Assembly: GCA_903922605.1 (NCBI GenBank)
Contig: CAIXUG010000089.1
Coordinates: 1 to 64,000 of the forward strand
Length of the DNA: 64,000 bases
Direction: 5' to 3'
Origin: an uncultured Verrucomicrobiota bacterium
GTDB lineage: Bacteria > Verrucomicrobiota > Verrucomicrobiia > Limisphaerales > UBA9464
Below the pieces are notes generated by a model. It did not search any database, was not told where the DNA came from, and worked only from the letters and a program-made list of their open reading frames with translations. Both the position numbers and the translations under genes were made by a program. The stretch's first letter is position 1. Every line of letters starts with the position of its first letter. Shown piece after piece: positions 22,264-29,917 of the stretch.

Positions 22264-22315
22264 GTAGAGCGGTCGTCGAAATTATGTAGTCGCTGACGAG
22301 TGGTTCGCGCCGTTC

Positions 22316-22470
22316 CCCCTCACCCAAACCCTCTCCCTCGGGGAGAGGGGACAGCCGGGTGGCCTGGACGGTGGTCTGGCCACGCGTCCGGCAACTCCAG
22401 CGGCAGCTTTCGCCAAAAGACAGGCGACGATTCTCCCTCTCCCTGAGGGAGAGGGCCGGGGTGAGGGGGA
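22316..22470. repeat. Inverted pair of CCCTCACCC...CTCTCCC palindromes
   Basis: Left unit 22316-22350 (CCCCCTCACCC, then CCCTCTCCCTCGGGGAGAGGG) and right unit 22432-22470 (CTCCCTCTCCCTGAGGGAGAGGG, then GGGGTGAGGGGG) are each palindromic and also inverted relative to each other with about 80 bp between. This sequence type is a widely distributed bacterial intergenic repeat. The rest of 22264-22642 holds no gene. Confidence 0.8.
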
Positions 22471-22642
22471 AGGCAACTTGCGCCCGTCGAAGACACCACT
22501 TCGCGAGGCGACTGCCCGACGGTCCATTTTCTTACCGCCAAGGGATTTCCAAACCAGCTCCAAGCCCCAAAAACTTCGGGAAGAAAACCGTTGAACCGAA
22601 GCCACCCACGCCTAGTATCCGCCCGCCTTCAAGGCAATCGGT

Positions 22643-22719
22643 CGGGGCGTAGCGTAGCTTGGTAGCGCGTCTGAATGGGGTTCAGAAGGTCGTGAGTTCA
22701 AATCTCACCGCCCCGACCA
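22643..22719 (+). tRNA. tRNA-Pro (GGG), copy 1 of 3
   Basis: Acceptor CGGGGCG/CGCCCCG; D-arm GCGT/GCGC; anticodon stem TCTGA/TCAGA with loop ATGGGGT, anticodon GGG; T-arm GTGAG-TTCAAAT-CTCAC; discriminator A and encoded CCA at 22717-22719. Preceded by the shared flank CCGCCTTCAAGGCAATCGGT that also precedes copies 2 and 3. Confidence 0.95.
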
Positions 22720-23106
22720 TCTTCCTCCTCAAGGACTTACTCACAAAGCACCTCCCCGTGGGCGAGTCAGCTCACGAACCCTTCAAAAAGCGGCGGGGAC
22801 ACCGGGACTTTCCACCCCAGCAACTGGAAACGGCCTGATACCGTGGCACCGCGATCAACCGGTGCAGCCATCGGAAATCTTCCCGCGTATCCCCAATGGC
22901 CTGACGGCGCGTACGCCGGTCGAGCTCGCCTTTCCGCGTCCCGAGCCCCTGATCCCGCGCTTGCACCGACCAAGGAATGTTCGGTCTTTGCCAAGTTACG
23001 GGTGGACATGACGGGCAAAAGAGCAGCCTATCGCATACATACCGTCAAAGGCGCTGCGCCTTTCAACTCGAAGCGACCGGCAACCTCTTCCCCCATCGTG
23101 GCAACC
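22720..23106. other. Gene-free leader of the cytochrome cassette
   Basis: No convincing coding frame. The only structure seen is a short hairpin AAAGGCG-CTG-CGCCTTT at 23047-23063, about 45 bp before the first cytochrome gene, which could act as an attenuator or weak terminator. Confidence 0.4.
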
Positions 23107-23466
23107 ATGAAGCGACACAAAACATCTGGGACGCCGTTGCGGACGCCGCTGGCCGCCATGGCCATCGGCCTGCTGGCCGCCGCGCTCTGCCTCGCCGAGC
23201 CGACGGCCCAGACGAATTCCGTCCCGGCCGGCACCAACGCAGCGACCGCCAAGGCCGTCGCGCCGGTCGCGCCGAAGAAGCAGCCGCTCTCGGGCGCGGA
23301 GCTTTACTCGATGCATTGCAACCGCTGCCACCCGGAACGCTACCCCACGGAGCGCACGGCCGCGCAATGGAAGTCCATCCTCCTCCACATGCAGGTGCGG
23401 GCGAATCTCCCCGGCCAGCAGGCCCGGCAGATTCTCAAGTATCTCCAGGAAAACAGCGGTCGCTGA
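23107..23466 (+). CDS. Small monohaem c-type cytochrome, 119 aa
   Basis: Periplasmic electron carrier. Residues 1-32 are a signal peptide (MAIGLLAAALCLAEP); an Ala/Pro-rich linker follows; one haem-binding site CNRCH lies near residue 74, followed by a single helical segment (AAQWKSILLHMQVRANLPGQ, then ARQILKYLQE) with a Met as a possible sixth ligand. The longer open frame upstream lacks a signal peptide, so 23107 is the start. It is followed after 25 bp by a porin gene and then by another cytochrome, all lying between two tRNA-Pro copies. Confidence 0.85.
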   Translation: MKRHKTSGTPLRTPLAAMAIGLLAAALCLAEPTAQTNSVPAGTNAATAKAVAPVAPKKQPLSGAELYSMHCNRCHPERYPTERTAAQWKSILLHMQVRANLPGQQARQILKYLQENSGR

Positions 23467-23491
23467 AATTCGGCACGCCCCACAACACCCG

Positions 23492-24847
23492 ATGAAAACG
23501 ACCCTGAAAACACGCGCCTGGACTTCCGGATTGGTGGCGGCCGGCTGCGCCCTGAGCGCGGCGCTGCCCGCCCAGACGCTGGCCGAGGTGAACGAGGAGG
23601 ACTTCAAGGCCCTCAAGGCGGTGGTGCAGCAGCTGAGCGAAAAGGTCCAGAAGCTGGAACAGACCCACCAGACCGACGAACAGACGCACCAGAAGGATCA
23701 GGAGCAGTTGCGGCAGCTCCAGGAACGGCTGGCTGACACTCAGAAGAGCGCCGCCAACGCCGAACAGCGGGGAGTGGCGGCGGCGCAGGCGCTCCCGATG
23801 CCCCGCGTGCCCCTCGACGAGGCCACCGTCAACCATAACTTTACGATCCTCGGCGACGCGGAGTTTCAATATGCCAAGACCTCGGGCCAGCACGGCTCGT
23901 TCCTGTTCGCCGACTTCGCGCCCATCTTCCTCTACCGCGGCGGGGACAACATCCTCTTCGAGGCGGGCTTCGACTTCACCATGCAGAATGTCGCGCCCAA
24001 CGGCGGCGGCTACACGACCGGGATCAACCTGAGCTTCGCCCAGCTGGACTATGTGGCGACCGACTACCTGACCATCGTGGCGGGCAACATGGTGCTGCCG
24101 CTCGGAACCTACAGCGAGCGGACCGCCGGCTGGCTGAACAAGCTCCCCGACGATCCCCTGGCGCGCGACTTCCTGCCGGGCTCCGGCGTCGGCGTGCAGT
24201 TGCGCGGCGCGGTTCCGCTGGGCGATGCCGGCAAGCTCTTCAACTATTCGGTATGGGGCGTGAACGGTGCCAGTTCGGCGGACGGCACGGGCAACGTCGG
24301 CTCTTTGGATCTCGGCGGCAACGTCGGCCTGCGCTCCGACAACGCGGTGGCCAACCTGCACGGGCATCCGTCCGGCGGGGCGCGGGTCGGGCTGTTTCTC
24401 CCGTTCAAGCCGCATTACGACCTGGAGGTCGGCCTCTCCGGGCAGTCGGGTGAATGGGATGACGCGGGCACCCACACCTGGTCGGCGGGGGTGATCGACG
24501 CGAGCCTGCACCTCGGACCCAACTTCGAGCTGAAGGGCGAGTATCTCCAGAGCCGTTACGGCAGCGACGATCTCGGCCTCATCAGCCAGCAGGGCTGGTG
24601 GGCGCAGGCCGGCTACAAGCTGGCGGGCCTGAACCTGGAACTGCCGCTCATCAACAACCTGGAGCTCGTGGGCCGCTATGACTTCGTGCGCGACGGCTTC
24701 GGCAGCCGGACCCACCGCTACAGCGTGGGCTACGTTTATTATGTCACCAACACCCTCCTCTTCGAGGGCGATTACGAGTTCTTCCACAGCAACGATCCCG
24801 CCCAACCCGACAACCAGCTGATCCTGCAGCTCTCCTACGGATTCTAA
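23492..24847 (+). CDS. Outer-membrane porin-like beta-barrel with coiled-coil, 451 aa
   Basis: Probable outer-membrane channel. A signal peptide (residues 1-32) precedes a coiled-coil (about 35-90: LKAVVQQLSEKVQKLEQTH, with Gln-rich heptads), then a barrel domain of alternating hydrophobic strands (FTILGDAEFQYAK, NILFEAGFDFTMQN) ending with a terminal aromatic (LQLSYGF). The architecture matches porins of the phosphate-selective/DcaP-like group. Its place between two c-type cytochrome genes suggests a porin-cytochrome conduit across the outer membrane, but this is inference; a solute porin co-regulated with redox genes is equally possible. Confidence 0.8.
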   Translation: MKTTLKTRAWTSGLVAAGCALSAALPAQTLAEVNEEDFKALKAVVQQLSEKVQKLEQTHQTDEQTHQKDQEQLRQLQERLADTQKSAANAEQRGVAAAQALPMPRVPLDEATVNHNFTILGDAEFQYAKTSGQHGSFLFADFAPIFLYRGGDNILFEAGFDFTMQNVAPNGGGYTTGINLSFAQLDYVATDYLTIVAGNMVLPLGTYSERTAGWLNKLPDDPLARDFLPGSGVGVQLRGAVPLGDAGKLFNYSVWGVNGASSADGTGNVGSLDLGGNVGLRSDNAVANLHGHPSGGARVGLFLPFKPHYDLEVGLSGQSGEWDDAGTHTWSAGVIDASLHLGPNFELKGEYLQSRYGSDDLGLISQQGWWAQAGYKLAGLNLELPLINNLELVGRYDFVRDGFGSRTHRYSVGYVYYVTNTLLFEGDYEFFHSNDPAQPDNQLILQLSYGF

Positions 24848-24893
24848 GGGGCGGACATGTGTCGCAACCGATCATTTGAAAGAAGGAACCGCC

Positions 24894-25679
24894 GTGAATA
24901 ATTCCAAGCTGTTGAAACCGCGTCCGCTGTGGTCCGCCGCGCTCGCGGCAGGCGGATTGATCCTCGGTGCCGGCGCGCTGGCGCAGGACGCGAGCGCGAC
25001 CAACGCGGCCCCCACCTATCTCCGCGATGTGCTGCCCATCTTCATGGGCAAGTGCTCGCGGTGCCACAACGAGCAGTCCCGCTTTGTTTACAACTGGCTC
25101 GACTACCGCACGGCGTTCACCGACCGCGGGGAGATCCGGCGGCGGATCTGGGACAGTTGGAAGGGCACGTATTTCAAGGAATCGATGCCCATCGCCAACA
25201 GCCCGGAATCCCTCGCGCTGACCGAGGCCGAACGCCTGACGATCCGCAACTGGGTGGCCGGCGGCGGCGTTCGCGGAGTCGCGCCCCCGCCGGGTGCGGA
25301 CAAATCCAAGGCGCAAAAGATCCCGCTGGGCAAACAGCTCTTCACCTCCATCTGTTCCGCGTGCCACCAGCCCACCGGCCAGGGGCTCCCCAACATGTTT
25401 CCGCCCCTGGCGGGCTCGGACTACCTGAACGCCGACAAGAAACGGGCGATCAAGCTCGTGATCAACGGACGGCAGGGAGAGGTGCTGGTCAACGGCCAGA
25501 AGTTCAACAACACGATGCCCGCGTTCCCGCTCAGCGACGACGACATCGCGAACGTCCTGACGTTCGTTTACAACTCATTCGGCAACTCCGGCCTGGAGGT
25601 GACCCCCGACGAGGTCAAGACGCTGCGGGCGGAACCGCCCGATCCCTCGGGCCCCCCGGCACCGAGCCAGTATGAATAG
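24894..25679 (+). CDS. Two-domain c-type cytochrome, 261 aa
   Basis: Exported dihaem cytochrome. The GTG at 24894 is chosen because AGAAGGA, one of the few good ribosome sites here, lies 6 bp upstream and a signal peptide follows (ending GALAQ). Domain 1 (about 35-130) has CSRCHNE and resembles the Planctomycete-type cytochrome domain; domain 2 (about 140-235) has CSACHQPTGQGLPNMFPPL and the Met ligand in NNTMPAFPLSDDDIANVLTF, very like the cytochrome domain fused to copper nitrite reductases. A Pro-rich tail ends the protein. It lies 46 bp after the porin gene in the same unit. Confidence 0.88.
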   Translation: MNNSKLLKPRPLWSAALAAGGLILGAGALAQDASATNAAPTYLRDVLPIFMGKCSRCHNEQSRFVYNWLDYRTAFTDRGEIRRRIWDSWKGTYFKESMPIANSPESLALTEAERLTIRNWVAGGGVRGVAPPPGADKSKAQKIPLGKQLFTSICSACHQPTGQGLPNMFPPLAGSDYLNADKKRAIKLVINGRQGEVLVNGQKFNNTMPAFPLSDDDIANVLTFVYNSFGNSGLEVTPDEVKTLRAEPPDPSGPPAPSQYE

Positions 25680-25715
25680 CCGAAACGATGGCAGCCCGCC
25701 TTCAAGGCAATCGGT

Positions 25716-25792
25716 CGGGGCGTAGCGTAGCTTGGTAGCGCGTCTGAATGGGGTTCAGAAGGTCGTGAGTTCAAATCTCACCGCCCCGACCA
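25716..25792 (+). tRNA. tRNA-Pro (GGG), copy 2 of 3
   Basis: Identical to copy 1 over the whole tRNA, including the CCA at 25790-25792, and over the preceding flank GCCCGCCTTCAAGGCAATCG. It starts 3,073 bp after copy 1 in the same orientation. Confidence 0.95.
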
Positions 25793-25910
25793 TCTTCTCC
25801 TGCAACTATTTGCATTTAGGAGCCCTCCCAGTAACAGCACCCAGCAATGACAAATCCCCTTTTGTCAGTATTTGCCGGTGTTTCGGGCGTCAACGTGGTC
25901 CGGCGGACTC

Positions 25911-25926
25911 GTGAAATAAATTTCAC
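25911..25926. promoter_or_regulatory. Palindrome GTGAAAT-AA-ATTTCAC
   Basis: Seven-base perfect arms separated by AA, 120 bp upstream of the PEP-CTERM gene at 26047. A plausible operator or short hairpin; the bound factor is unknown. Confidence 0.35.
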
Positions 25927-26046
25927 GGCAGCCTTCCAGAATACACCCAACAGTTTCTTGCGACGTTTTTGCTCGATATTTGAGGCCGGTTTCATCAGCT
26001 TCGTCCCAAGCCCAGTTCATTCAGCCCGTCAATAATATCAGTTCGC

Positions 26047-27045
26047 ATGAACCGCTCCTTCGCCCTGCCCCTGCTCGCCCTGGCCGCGCTGCCGTTACGC
26101 GCCGACCTGTTCACGCTCTCCGCCGTGAATGTGGACGCCCTCTTCAATCCCGGATCTGACCAGCAGACCTCGTTTGTCGGCGGCACCATGGCCGACGTTT
26201 CACGTACCAGCAGCTCCTACTTCTTCGGTCCCGGAGTCACCAACCTGCTCGGCACGGCAACCTCGACGGCTTTTGCCCGCGCCGACGCCGGCTCGCTGGG
26301 CGTGAGCACATCCGTGAGTATCCAAGCCACCGGCGCCACCGACCTGCTCAAGGCCAAGGCGGGCGCCTACGAGAATCCCGGCGCGGGGCAGTTCTTCGAT
26401 GCCTACGGCGCGCTGGCCAGGTTTTCCACCTCGGACCTCGCGATTACGCCGATTCCCGGCGCCGGGGTCTCGGGGTCTGGCTCCGTGACGGCCCGTCTCA
26501 ATCTGAATCTCGACGGGTCATTCACCTCCAACCCGGTCGTCAGTGCGTCCGGTACGGCCAGCCAGTCCACCACGGTTTACGTCAGCGTCGGCTTCAATTT
26601 CACCGACCCCGTCACGCATTTCCAAGGCGGCAACGGCTTCACCGGCTCGCTCCAGGTGACCCAGGCATTGGGCGGCGCGGTGACCTTCGGCGCGGGAACG
26701 GGCCTGCTTTCCGGCTACACCGGCGGTCCCTTGAGTCTCAGCACCGGTGCCACGGGGCTTCCGATCGGCACGCCGATCAGCCTGGACGTCAGCCTCTGGG
26801 CGATTACCGAAGTTCAGGCGGGCGGGACGCTCAATTTTGCCGGCGGCGCGGACTTCTATCACACACTGTCGCTGCCGACCTCGGGGAGCGTGATCGACCT
26901 GCCCGCTGGTTACACTGCCGACAGCCCGGACCTCCACGTCAGCGACAACAGCTACTCCGCCGTGCCTGAACCCCGAGGCTGGGCGGTGCTCGCCTCGGCC
27001 GGCCTGCTGGGCTTTGCCCTGGCGCGTCGCAAGTCGAACCGATAG
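26047..27045 (+). CDS. PEP-CTERM sorted exported protein, 332 aa
   Basis: Exported surface protein. A signal peptide occupies residues 1-20 (LPLLALAALPLRA); the mature chain is rich in Gly, Ser, Thr and Ala with alternating beta-type hydrophobicity; the tail VPEPRGWAVLASAGLLGFAL plus ARRKSNR is a clear PEP-CTERM sorting signal. It is not obviously similar to the other two PEP-CTERM proteins here. It is the only gene between tRNA-Pro copies 2 and 3. Confidence 0.85.
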   Translation: MNRSFALPLLALAALPLRADLFTLSAVNVDALFNPGSDQQTSFVGGTMADVSRTSSSYFFGPGVTNLLGTATSTAFARADAGSLGVSTSVSIQATGATDLLKAKAGAYENPGAGQFFDAYGALARFSTSDLAITPIPGAGVSGSGSVTARLNLNLDGSFTSNPVVSASGTASQSTTVYVSVGFNFTDPVTHFQGGNGFTGSLQVTQALGGAVTFGAGTGLLSGYTGGPLSLSTGATGLPIGTPISLDVSLWAITEVQAGGTLNFAGGADFYHTLSLPTSGSVIDLPAGYTADSPDLHVSDNSYSAVPEPRGWAVLASAGLLGFALARRKSNR

Positions 27046-27069
27046 CCGCCCGTCTTCAAGGCAATCGGT

Positions 27070-27146
27070 CGGGCCGTAGCGTAGCTTGGTAGCGCGTCTG
27101 AATGGGGTTCAGAAGGTCGTGAGTTCAAATCTCACCGCCCCGACAA
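27070..27146 (+). tRNA. tRNA-Pro (GGG), copy 3, probably degenerate
   Basis: Same orientation and same upstream flank as copies 1 and 2 (one C to T change), 1,354 bp after copy 2. Two differences matter: acceptor position 5 is C instead of G, making a C:C mismatch, and the 3' end reads ACAA rather than ACCA. It may be inactive or need CCA-adding repair. Right of it the sequence becomes AT-rich. Confidence 0.75.
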
Positions 27147-27593
27147 TCTTCCCCTGGAGCAGGCTTTTCGTGGAATGCGATAAAGATGACCTCTTCCATT
27201 ACATTTCTTTTTCGCGCCTGTCTTTCTTCGACGAATTTCTATTCCTTTCGACACGCTCTCCAACCGATGTTTTAGGTATTCTCTCAACACTGATTTCTGG
27301 GCGGAATTAGGACGGCAACGCTTTCAGATTTGCTATCGCTTTAAAAGCTAAGCGCACCACAAGGATACTATAGTTTTAGTATAGGTTACGTTCTATATTT
27401 TATTTCCCAAGTGAGCAAGGTCAGCGATATGCCAATACTCACGTTGCAACCTCGTCATTTGGATTGCGGGCAATCAACACTTCACCTCGACCCTGGAAAT
27501 ATTTTGCCGTGCAACGACTAGCATTCACAAGTAGCTTGAACGTACACGCGATGGCGCCACAGCATTAATGACGTCATCATGACTTAACATTCC
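27147..27593. other. Long AT-rich leader before the dCTP deaminase gene
   Basis: About 450 bp without a convincing coding frame. It contains ATACTA-TAGTTT-TAGTAT, a small stem-loop near 27365-27383, AT-rich promoter-like stretches, and a perfect palindrome at 27568. In Vibrio-type AvcD systems a small regulatory RNA (AvcI) is encoded next to the deaminase gene, so a non-coding RNA here is plausible but not shown. Confidence 0.35.
27568..27577. promoter_or_regulatory. Perfect 10-bp palindrome ATGACGTCAT
   Basis: Lies 17 bp before the deaminase start codon, inside a larger TTAATGACGTCATCATGACTTAA context with a second TGAC half-site. Possible operator or leader structure. Confidence 0.3.
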
Positions 27594-29393
27594 ATGTCGA
27601 CAAAAATAGTTTTTACCAAATCCTTTGCAGAGTTGAAGGATGCCCTGAAGTCCATTGGAGGCATTTGGAATGAATCACAACCAAGCAAAAAGGTTTTACG
27701 CCTAGATGGCGGAGTCATGACTTGGTTTGAGTCGACGGGTAGCCTTCAATTCCAAGGCAAAGAACCTTCCCGAGACGCTCTTGAAGGTAAGGTTAAGTCA
27801 ATTCTCAATCCTGAAATCTACACGGTTGTTCAAAAGCGGCCCATGGTGGAATTTAATCCTCCTAAACCTTCAACCTTGACTACACCGGTTAACAAGCAAT
27901 CTCAGGCGGTCGCTCAGTATCTTCAAGACAAGTTTTCAGAGTCGGAAGTCGTGTTAGGTATTGTGAGTGCTGTGGGCACTGATTCTAACAGAGTAATTAC
28001 GCCGTTTGAAAATCGAATCAGAAGCTTTGGCTACAATGTTAAGATAATTCGTGTATCAGAATTACTGCCAGTGCAAGTTCCCGCATCGGCTTCAGAATAT
28101 GATCGGATAAAAACATTAATGGCTGCCGGAGACACGTTGCGGGAAGGGAGCGGCCGAAATTCAATTCTCGCAGCAGGAATAGCTTCCAGGATCAAGTCAT
28201 TAAGAGATCCTTCCAAACCAAAGACTGCATTTATCATAAATTCTCTGAAGCATCCTGAGGAAGTCGAGTTGCTTCGAAGGATTTATGGCGAAGTGTTTTT
28301 CTTGGTTGGGATTCATGCTGGCGAGAAACGACGATTGTCATATCTACAAGAGGATCGAGGTTTAACGAGCGATCAAGCAGCGGAATTGACTCGAATTGAT
28401 GAAGATGAAGATGTGGCACATGGGCAAAGAACACGTGATACGTTTCATCTTTCGGATTTCTTCATAAATCTTGGCAAGAACGATGATCAGGTGAAGCATA
28501 CGGTTACACGATTTCTTGAACTGATTTTCGCACATCCCTACCGCAATCCCACTTTCGATGAATTCGCCATGTTCATGGCATTTTGCAGTTCCATCCGTTC
28601 AGGTGATCTTTCGCGCCAGGTTGGGGCCATCGTAGCCCGGGAGAAACAGATTCTTGCAACTGGAGCGAATGAGTGTCCCGCTTTTAAAGGAGGGCACTAT
28701 TGGGCTGAAGTCGACCCTTTGTCTGGCGAGGTGAAGGACCGCCCAGAAGGAAAAGATTACAAATGGGAGTTTGATTCAAATAGGGCTGAACAGAGGGAGA
28801 TCATTAAAGAGATCATTCACAATGCTTCACAACTGCCGGAAATTAGTGAGACTGTTAAAAATGGATTAGAAGCCATTTTGAATAAAAGCCGTATCAAAGA
28901 TTTAACCGAGTTTGGTCGAGTAGTGCACGCAGAAATGGCCGCGCTTCTGTCCTGCGCAAGGGCGGGAATTCCAACCCGAGAAGCGGTTTTGTTTTGCACC
29001 ACCTTCCCATGCCATAATTGTGCAAAACACATCATCGACGCCGGTATTGTGCGAGTGGTTTACGTTGAACCATACCCAAAAAGTAAAGCGCTTGAATTGC
29101 ATGATGACTCCATCGAGCTGAGAACAAAGTTAGATGAAAAGATTTCTGAAACAAAAGTTACCTTTGAACCGTTTACAGGTGTTGGGGCAAGGCGATTCCT
29201 TGACCTATTCTCCATGAGTTTGGGCGCTGGCTCAAAGCTCAAGAGAAAGGAAAGAGATGGCTCAATTGTCGATTGGAAGCCAGAGAACGCTCGAGTTCGA
29301 ATTCCCATGTTACCAATGGCATATCGAGATTCGGAAACCGAAGCTGAATCGCTATTCCATTCTGTAACCAAAGGCTTAAAAAGCAAAGCTTGA
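27594..29393 (+). CDS. Probable anti-phage dCTP/dCMP deaminase with TBP-like N-terminal domain, 599 aa
   Basis: Likely defence protein that depletes deoxycytidine nucleotides on phage infection. Residues about 90-300 form the P-loop-kinase-like domain of the AvcD/anti-phage dCTP deaminase family (GIVSAVGT at 122-129, then ENRIRSFGYNVKIIRVSELL and FIINSLKHPEEVELLRRIYG). The C-terminal deaminase has zinc ligands His445 (HAEMAALL), Cys473 and Cys476 (FPCHNC) with Glu447 as proton shuttle. Residues 1-72 are extra: FAELKDALKSIGGIWN and WFESTGSLQFQGK resemble the small TBP-like domain at the N-terminus of RNase HIII. The gene is markedly AT-rich against GC-rich neighbours and stands alone next to the tRNA-Pro repeats, signs of transfer. 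Family assignment is from motifs; activity is inferred. Confidence 0.82.
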   Translation: MSTKIVFTKSFAELKDALKSIGGIWNESQPSKKVLRLDGGVMTWFESTGSLQFQGKEPSRDALEGKVKSILNPEIYTVVQKRPMVEFNPPKPSTLTTPVNKQSQAVAQYLQDKFSESEVVLGIVSAVGTDSNRVITPFENRIRSFGYNVKIIRVSELLPVQVPASASEYDRIKTLMAAGDTLREGSGRNSILAAGIASRIKSLRDPSKPKTAFIINSLKHPEEVELLRRIYGEVFFLVGIHAGEKRRLSYLQEDRGLTSDQAAELTRIDEDEDVAHGQRTRDTFHLSDFFINLGKNDDQVKHTVTRFLELIFAHPYRNPTFDEFAMFMAFCSSIRSGDLSRQVGAIVAREKQILATGANECPAFKGGHYWAEVDPLSGEVKDRPEGKDYKWEFDSNRAEQREIIKEIIHNASQLPEISETVKNGLEAILNKSRIKDLTEFGRVVHAEMAALLSCARAGIPTREAVLFCTTFPCHNCAKHIIDAGIVRVVYVEPYPKSKALELHDDSIELRTKLDEKISETKVTFEPFTGVGARRFLDLFSMSLGAGSKLKRKERDGSIVDWKPENARVRIPMLPMAYRDSETEAESLFHSVTKGLKSKA

Positions 29394-29849
29394 CGCTGCT
29401 GCCCGGGTTTCGCTCAACCGTCCAATGAACGTAGTCTTTCCCGTCCCAAAACACGCCTCGACGCTGAACCCGCCGCGTTTGGTGGTGACAGGTTGGCACG
29501 GAGCGACCGCCCTTCCCATAGCGGTTTGAGAACGAACTGAGCCGTCTTCGTGGGCGGAGTCACGTTCGGGATGTTGCTGACATTCCTCGGCCCCATAACC
29601 TTCTACATTTTGATTCGAATCACTTTTAGTCCCACACTTAATCACGCTTTTCCGCAACGCCAACTTGCCCCGAAATCCTCGACGGGGACGGAGATGGTTT
29701 CAGCCCCGGTTTCGACCGCAGCGCACCTCCAATTCCTGTCTCGTCTGTAAGGTACTTGCCTCGGCTGCCACCGGTGCCACACACCAGCAAGCCGGCCCGT
29801 TGATGCGGCTTCCCATCCCGCGCTCATGGAACCAGCCGCGGCCAAAAAT
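29394..29849. other. Gene-poor stretch after the deaminase gene
   Basis: Short overlapping frames occur on both strands (for example minus 29376-29663) but none has convincing protein character; the minus-strand frame has a P-loop-like GTGKTTF by chance or as a remnant. Composition returns from AT-rich to GC-rich here, so it may contain the right boundary of the transferred segment. Confidence 0.3.
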
Positions 29850-29863
29850 ATGAGCGCACTCAT
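29850..29863. promoter_or_regulatory. TetR operator copy 1, ATGAG-CGCA-CTCAT
   Basis: ATGAGCGCACTCAT with 5-bp arms, flanked by a further T/A pair, identical to the copy at 29899; 49 bp centre to centre. Placement just before the TetR gene supports autoregulation. Confidence 0.65.
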
Positions 29864-29898
29864 ATTTGTTTGACGCCGGCCGTCTCCCGTGCTCATTT

Positions 29899-29912
29899 AT
29901 GAGCGCACTCAT
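29899..29912. promoter_or_regulatory. TetR operator copy 2, ATGAG-CGCA-CTCAT
   Basis: Identical to copy 1; ends 5 bp before the TetR start codon, so binding would block transcription start or translation initiation of the tetR-ubiB-like unit. Confidence 0.65.
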
Positions 29913-29917
29913 TTTTT

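Follow-up and report, generated by a model that had tools for sequence, protein, structure and literature searches.

Mobile DNA often lands in transfer RNA (tRNA) genes, and annotators seek short repeats of the tRNA 3' end to locate the ends of insertions. The closest described systems are the additive flexible genomic islands of free-living aquatic bacteria, in which, according to the passages that deal with them, variable cassettes lie by one tRNA gene and are bounded by its repeats (PMC10872708, PMC5217437); the Methylophilaceae island fGI-2 has serial cassettes near tRNA-Lys with 20-bp repeats of its end (PMC10872708), and the Alteromonas islands carry a duplicated tRNA-Met 3' end (PMC5217437). 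In the cited part of the account of Dehalococcoides, tandem islands with 20-bp 3'-end repeats follow ssrA; accretion is proposed, and some of the islands are proposed to be cis-mobilizable (PMC3146451). Here we describe a related arrangement in 64,000 nucleotides of DNA (the window; positions 1 to 64,000 of contig CAIXUG010000089.1, forward strand, assembly GCA_903922605.1) from an uncultured Verrucomicrobiota bacterium of the order Limisphaerales, in which three copies of a tRNA-Pro(GGG) gene delimit two cassettes (A and B) and are followed by a third segment (C).

The array shares with the additive islands its position at a single tRNA gene and its repeat-bounded cassettes, but where those accounts have a repeat of 20 bp from the end of tRNA-Lys or a duplicate of a tRNA 3' end (PMC10872708, PMC5217437), the repeat here is the whole tRNA with a leader and a trailer. 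As in the Dehalococcoides islands, serial insertions follow one RNA gene and some lack an integration module, whereas sixteen islands there are described with a CcrB-like recombinase module (PMC3146451) and here the repeats are whole genes and no recombinase was found. Tycheposons, as summarized in PMC10872708, are likewise cargo islands bordered by a tRNA gene, but have a XerD-type recombinase inside and span 4 to 200 kb; here the border is present, no recombinase was found, and the cassettes are 1 to 3 kb. In the open-licence papers searched, we came across no case in which whole tRNA units without a promoter serve as boundaries, and the array seems to be an unusual variant of a widespread process. 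Long attachment-site identity over most or all of a tRNA gene is reported for SLP1 and phage HP1, which are single autonomous elements with their own integrase.

ARAGORN places tRNA-Pro(GGG) at 22643-22719, 25716-25792, and 27070-27144, all on the plus strand, which bears out the original prediction, made from the letters of the window, of three same-orientation copies starting at these positions. That prediction also had a shared upstream flank of about 20 bp; the flank is present and measures 22 bp, and the repeated unit as a whole exceeds the tRNA, comprising the 22-bp leader, the tRNA, and a 6-bp trailer (104-105 bp), and its edges are sharp. The features of the array are as follows, with G000 denoting the genome that contains the window and G004 that of a sister species.

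22591..22618, plus strand: probable promoter of the native tRNA-Pro, predicted for copy 1 only (read by eye; boxes in 6/6 congeners)
22621..22725, plus strand: unit 1, consisting of leader, native tRNA-Pro(GGG) at 22643-22719, and trailer (ARAGORN, unit alignment)
22726..25693, plus strand: cassette A, between units 1 and 2, 2968 bp, 65% G+C (central protein unmatched in the other congeners, including G004; not beside the tRNA in G004)
25678..25693 and 27032-27047, plus strand: upstream extension common to copies 2 and 3 (12/16 bases)
25694..25797 (alignment to 25798), plus strand: unit 2, a complete tRNA-Pro(GGG) unit without promoter (unit alignment)
25798..25893, plus strand: sequence downstream of copy 2; related sequence follows the tRNA or a tRNA remnant in G004, G003, and G011 (z scores)
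25798..27047, plus strand: cassette B, between units 2 and 3, 1250 bp, 63% G+C (unit edges)
27048..27152, plus strand: unit 3, a probably decayed tRNA-Pro copy (mismatch, CCA to CAA, RF00005 score, fold energy)
27153..29844, plus strand: segment C, 2692 bp, 47% G+C (ends where synteny with G004 resumes)

Units 1 and 2 are 100% identical over 104 bp, the last base being the sole difference, and unit 3 departs from unit 1 at three positions, one each in the leader, the acceptor stem, and the encoded CCA. These put a C opposite a C in the acceptor stem of unit 3 and turn its CCA into CAA. Because unit 3 has a lower score for the tRNA family RF00005 (57.9 versus 63.3 bits) and a weaker predicted fold (-23.4 versus -30.6 kcal/mol), it is probably a decaying copy. 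A chance origin of the repeated units is excluded, since a search of the whole genome with the copy-2 region returned the three array sites and one 89% relative, a tRNA-Pro(CGG). Directly upstream of the unit, 12 of 16 bases are common to copies 2 and 3, and copy 1 is without them; when about 200,000 pairs of places were drawn at random from the window, a fraction of 5.5e-4 extended equally well or better. The comparison covered three pairs of copies, and the own-genome search aligns this extension as well. It provides modest evidence that the boundaries at copies 2 and 3 may descend from one junction.

Two boxes read by eye upstream of copy 1, TTGAAC (22591-22596) and TAGTAT (22613-22618), lie 16 bp apart and precede tRNA-Pro(GGG) in all six congeners that have a copy; this conservation makes them the probable promoter, and a scan with a consensus promoter did not include them in its list. 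The boxes are not present before copies 2 and 3, where gene ends occupy that position, with stop codons 14 bp (copy 2) and 2 bp (copy 3) ahead of the unit. Neither the missing promoters of copies 2 and 3 nor the damage to copy 3 had been noted in the original prediction. The unit starts about 4 bp ahead of the transcription start that we infer for copy 1 from the boxes. Many tRNA-Pro(GGG) 5' leaders (window 22621-22642; relatives L001-L030) are predicted to form a small hairpin. Against 200 shuffles per locus, 24 of 30 leaders fold more stably than the shuffled average and 11 of 30 rank in the top tenth, so the leader may have a function in the tRNA precursor. The leader of unit 2 is identical to those of copy 1 and G004 and one base from those of G006 and G007, and the other congeners differ; the match to copy 1 and G004 suggests that unit 2 was copied within this lineage.

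A tRNA probe matches all 58 genomes searched (own genome included), and G000 is the only one with more than one full tRNA-Pro copy on a contig. Six of the seven congeners have one full copy of tRNA-Pro(GGG) at 97-100% identity, and in G001, which is 54% complete, we found only a CGG gene. The 89-90% matches that were checked in congeners are tRNA-Pro(CGG), and one further match in G007 is tRNA-Pro(TGG). Thus 0 of 7 congeners have the same three copies with unvarying cassettes, the result that the original prediction had named as refuting its reading. The left flank of the gene is vertically inherited, judging from the SpoIIE-type gene that precedes the tRNA in G004, G005, G006, G007, G011, and G030. 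We note that two G212 contigs (L101, L102) end inside tRNA-Pro(GGG) and that one G020 contig (C38, L019) starts within it, perhaps a point at which assemblies break.

Comparison with relatives supports the view that this single tRNA-Pro(GGG) gene is an insertion hot spot of the lineage, on the grounds of presence and absence among relatives, of a recombinase and a tRNA remnant in G004, and of an occupied and an empty site in G003 and G002. On G004 contig C48, the left flank is 93-95% identical to that of the window up to the tRNA, which is then followed by a 415-aa tyrosine recombinase (Phage_integrase, 30.8 bits; cut-off, 27.1). On G004 contig C31, a stretch of 54 nt corresponds to the 3' portion of the tRNA plus the trailer, starting in the anticodon arm (tRNA base 30), and the match to the window resumes about 620 bp after this remnant, with position 1561 of that locus (L032) corresponding to window position 29845. 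Over 411 aa, the G004 recombinase shares 98.3% identity with one in G010, a member of another genus, where it too lies beside a tRNA-Pro 3' remnant; such identity across genera points to recent movement of this type of element. In G003, the full tRNA is on one contig, and on another a 35-nt remnant lies 99 bp from a 392-aa recombinase; flanks matching those of G003 (91 and 92%) are on a single, element-free contig in G002. A second difference between these two genomes is about 5.4 kb in G003 (L039, 2485-7865) versus about 130 bp in G002. In G011, a recombinase gene follows the full tRNA, but the contig ends after its N-terminal piece (PHROG integrase, 1.2e-6; Pfam scores below cut-offs); this genome has two more matches to the 3' part of the tRNA, one of 52 nt and one of 48 nt. 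G034, G040, G045, G047, and G054 have short 3' matches as well, 25-49 nt long (surroundings viewed for G034 only). The elements of G003, G004, and G010, and probably G011, all of the family to which G000 belongs, share the target of the array, and those of G003, G004, and G011 have sequence related to that after copy 2, but they leave 3' matches of 35-55 nt and carry a recombinase gene (in G011, the N-terminal piece at the contig end). Partial copies are thus the pattern found elsewhere, and whole units are the exception.

We compared the sequences that follow the tRNA or its remnants in these loci, using 17 sequences in all pairs with 60 shuffles each and listing pairs with z > 4. The sequence after copy 2 gives a z score of 7.3 against that after the G004 remnant, 8.2 against that after the full tRNA of G003, and 5.0 against that after a G011 remnant, and this likeness to arms in G003 and G011 weakens its interpretation as native downstream DNA. 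The sequence GTTACAACA forms a direct repeat (seen by eye) after the tRNA or remnant in G003, G011, and G034, and is decayed in the window, and for this reason the arm after copy 2 may be what remains of an older element that preceded the divergence of G000 and G004. In their common ancestor the tRNA was probably followed by this arm. Given its relation to the sequence after the G004 remnant, cassette A probably entered G000 where G004 took its own element.

The array fits established classes of mobile element only in part. As in tRNA-targeting integrative elements of the tyrosine recombinase type, there is insertion at a tRNA with presence and absence among relatives; an integrase of its own, and a full tRNA at one end with a partial 3' repeat at the other, were not found. 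At the right edge (27154-29900), no tRNA remnant scores above shuffled sequence (score 17; shuffles up to 27). Cassettes A and B resemble cis-mobilizable elements or additive islands, with repeats at both ends and, as far as seen, no gene for integration or transfer; segment C lacks a repeat on its right. Integron attC sites have the core motifs RYYYAAC and GTTRRRY. No match to either lies in or within 20 bp of the three units on either strand, and with no PF00589 match at E <= 1e-8 on the window's contig, an integron cassette array was rejected. A phage- or plasmid-borne source of the tRNA was also rejected, as 59 phage and 10 plasmid records match, none over 80% of the unit, with identities of at most 80-90%; viral contigs have no exact match of a 45-base core.

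Starting from the observed anatomy of the sequence, the variation among species, and the recombinases and remnants at the same tRNA in relatives, we infer circles, an enzyme, and an order of events for the array. In the relatives, ordinary tyrosine-recombinase elements use tRNA-Pro(GGG) and leave a partial 3' copy of the tRNA at their far end. In G000, cassettes A (3073 bp with its unit) and B (1354 bp with its unit), each ending in a whole promoterless unit, would have been added serially, and the third segment, with its deaminase gene, probably was too. The reading that we prefer, with middling confidence, is that these are integrase-less cassettes for which the whole tRNA unit is the recombination site, moved by RecA or by an integrase acting in trans. 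Their likely form would be a small circle carrying one complete unit (3073 or 1354 bp), and a single crossover anywhere within the 105 bp of identity, by RecA or a trans-acting tyrosine recombinase, would give this array. New insertions would enter nearest the promoter, so that the native tRNA stays working and the older copies are pushed to the right, redundant and free to decay; the identity of units 1 and 2 and the damage to unit 3 fit additions at the promoter end. The first whole unit could have been made by a one-sided illegitimate insertion. A stronger version, which we consider improbable, is a cassette system with the complete promoterless unit as its exchange site, integron-like with a tRNA in place of attC and served by a recombinase in trans; a circle cut between two units would carry one unit and could enter any other, its genes would come to lie after a tRNA, and the essential tRNA would never be broken.

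Several observations weigh against cassettes of this kind. There is no PF00589 match on the window's contig at E <= 1e-8, a threshold at which weaker relics could be missed, and the cassette spacers hold no trace of the integrases of two relatives; both searches agree with the original prediction that no integrase is visible. A recombinase acting in trans could be among the six PF00589 matches that the own genome has at this threshold, all on other contigs; one of these matches (C7) is 36% identical to the G004 recombinase. Ordinary integration does not yield whole copies: the tRNA remnants near recombinases in relatives are 35-55 nt, and G000 itself has, at tRNA-Met on contig C39, an element with a recombinase whose repeat is 30 nt. 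The sequences after copies 1 and 3 have no partner with z > 4 among the 17 compared. In both G004 and G003, the two sides of the element are on different contigs, so that their linkage, and the size of the G004 element, are inferred. We saw no strain of this species that lacks the cassettes. In G002, tRNA-Pro(CGG) is present twice, on contigs C62 (L139/L149) and C56 (L140/L150, at the contig end), and the two copies are about 90% alike over 198 bp including the upstream region and the start of the adjoining tRNA-Leu; whole-tRNA duplication by other means, with the upstream region kept, may thus be possible in the genus. Finally, the array, known from one draft genome, could be a one-off accident, since no second one was found: there is none among the matches listed in a 293-genome sample of the order (139 of them matching at E <= 1e-24, with scores for three candidates in each), and a search for the 3' half of the tRNA, restricted to exact matches, in a species-level genome set from which the genome of the window may be absent gave 22 stretches with one match each. 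The fragmentation of several congener genomes limits this result.

We also note a separate locus of the own genome, on contig C71 (L130, 1849-3411), where the 3' end of a tRNA-Met recurs 1.5 kb further on as a repeat of 32 nt (94%) and a recombinase gene flanks this tRNA on its other side.

The original prediction had offered serial insertion at a hot spot or duplication-mediated capture; the relatives bear out insertion at a hot spot, and neither route to the whole-copy boundaries is proved. In a rival account, local duplication with illegitimate insertion, incoming DNA would have paired with the tRNA on one side and been joined illegitimately just upstream of the unit on the other, which would duplicate the unit with no mobile element or recombinase, and insertion by homology on one side is described in PMC3240628. 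Several results suit this account: unit 2 has the leader of copy 1 and G004 and was probably copied in the lineage and not brought in with cargo whose relatives are in other families, nine loci carrying the cassette A operon in relatives have no tRNA nearby, and the second whole tRNA-Pro(CGG) of G002 indicates that tRNA regions get duplicated in the genus. It would, however, need two events with nearly coinciding breakpoints (22621 and about 22619), unless one junction gave rise to both copies 2 and 3, as their common extension hints, and it leaves to coincidence the recombinase-bearing elements at the same site in relatives; we regard it as somewhat unlikely. An assembly artifact, in which pieces of different strains or species were joined across the identical 105-bp unit, would suit a draft of 90 contigs that is probably metagenome assembled and in which units 1 and 2 are identical over 104 bp. 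Yet copies 2 and 3 have their own upstream sequence, with gene ends running into the leader, and these junctions should exist somewhere; moreover, cassettes A and B (65 and 63% G+C) resemble the flanks (65 and 64%) in composition and the unit is on no other contig of the genome, and such a misassembly is in our view quite improbable.

The edges of the unit raise one further explanation, that a longer transcript containing the precursor tRNA, from transcription start through trailer, was copied into DNA and inserted. The unit start about 4 bp before the expected transcription start is consistent with this, as are the promoterless state of copies 2 and 3, which lie 14 and 2 bp after stop codons, and the possibility that the leader works in the precursor, its fold being above the shuffled mean in 24/30 loci. 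Against this, the shared trailer is just 6 bp, a recombination edge at the same place explains the unit start equally well, and we know of no bacterial precedent for RNA-borne tRNA copies, which makes this origin barely credible. If whole units do mark cassette ends, as in the reading that we prefer, some integrase-less islands may have been missed or taken for mere tRNA duplications, and cassettes of 1 to 3 kb could enter an essential single-copy tRNA gene harmlessly. The pairs G002/G003 and G000/G004 make the site testable.

The cargo of the array consists of the following genes.

23107..23466, plus strand: cytA, a small protein with one CxxCH motif (motif by eye; adjoins the 451-aa gene in 9/9 operon loci)
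23492..24847, plus strand: 451-aa protein (no family match; 77% identical in G173)
24894..25679, plus strand: cytB, a c-type cytochrome with its stop codon 14 bp before unit 2 (Cytochrom_C, E 4.9e-13)
26047..27045, plus strand: 332-aa PEP-CTERM-like protein with its stop codon 2 bp before unit 3 (C terminus by eye)
27594..29393, plus strand: predicted anti-phage dCTP deaminase gene (NF041025, PADLOC)

None of the three cargo proteins tested has a full-length relative in any of the seven congeners. The cassette between copies 1 and 2 had been called a cytochrome-porin-cytochrome cassette; an operon of a cytochrome, the 451-aa protein, and a cytochrome is indeed present, but the porin label for the central protein finds no match in Pfam, PHROGs, NCBIfam, or PADLOC. 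CytA has no Pfam match. The order of the three genes of this operon (23107-25679) is kept in 9/9 loci from other families of the order, one of which has its last gene cut by the contig end; these loci (L089-L092 and L094-L098) were taken from the best-scoring of 50 matching genomes, with flanks of almost none to about 9 kb. None of them contains a tRNA, and a donor arrangement of the operon followed by tRNA-Pro was therefore rejected; 19 shorter operon loci (L070-L088) have one tRNA, a tRNA-Met in L083. The 451-aa protein has matches in 50 of the 293 order-sample genomes at E <= 1e-20 (own genome included), with up to 77% identity in other families of the order (G173). Within the window's own family (50 genomes), it has one distant match besides itself (31%), and it has none in any of the seven congeners.

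The gene between copies 2 and 3 had been described as a PEP-CTERM gene, and the 332-aa protein does have a PEP-CTERM-like end. It has no Pfam match at E <= 0.001, and besides itself 11 of the 50 family genomes match, one over the full length (G016, 41%) and ten with short or C-terminal matches. The AT-rich defense gene predicted after copy 3 is likewise recovered, in segment C, whose 47% G+C compares with 65 and 64% in the flanks, as a probable anti-phage dCTP deaminase that scores 452.1 bits in NF041025 (curated cut-off, 400) and 3e-160 in the PADLOC dCTPase model, consistent with a role in defense against viruses. Elsewhere in the 50 family genomes, only short deaminase-domain matches occur, in four congeners.

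Two features lie just outside the array. To its left, a 37-bp inverted repeat with 85 bp between its arms (22313-22471) has similar stretches elsewhere in G004 and G117, and is perhaps a dispersed repeat. To its right, two 19-bp near-identical palindrome-like repeats (29849-29916) precede a TetR-type gene, with a similar pair in G004 (L032, about 1565 and 1613, by eye), and are perhaps the operator of that gene.

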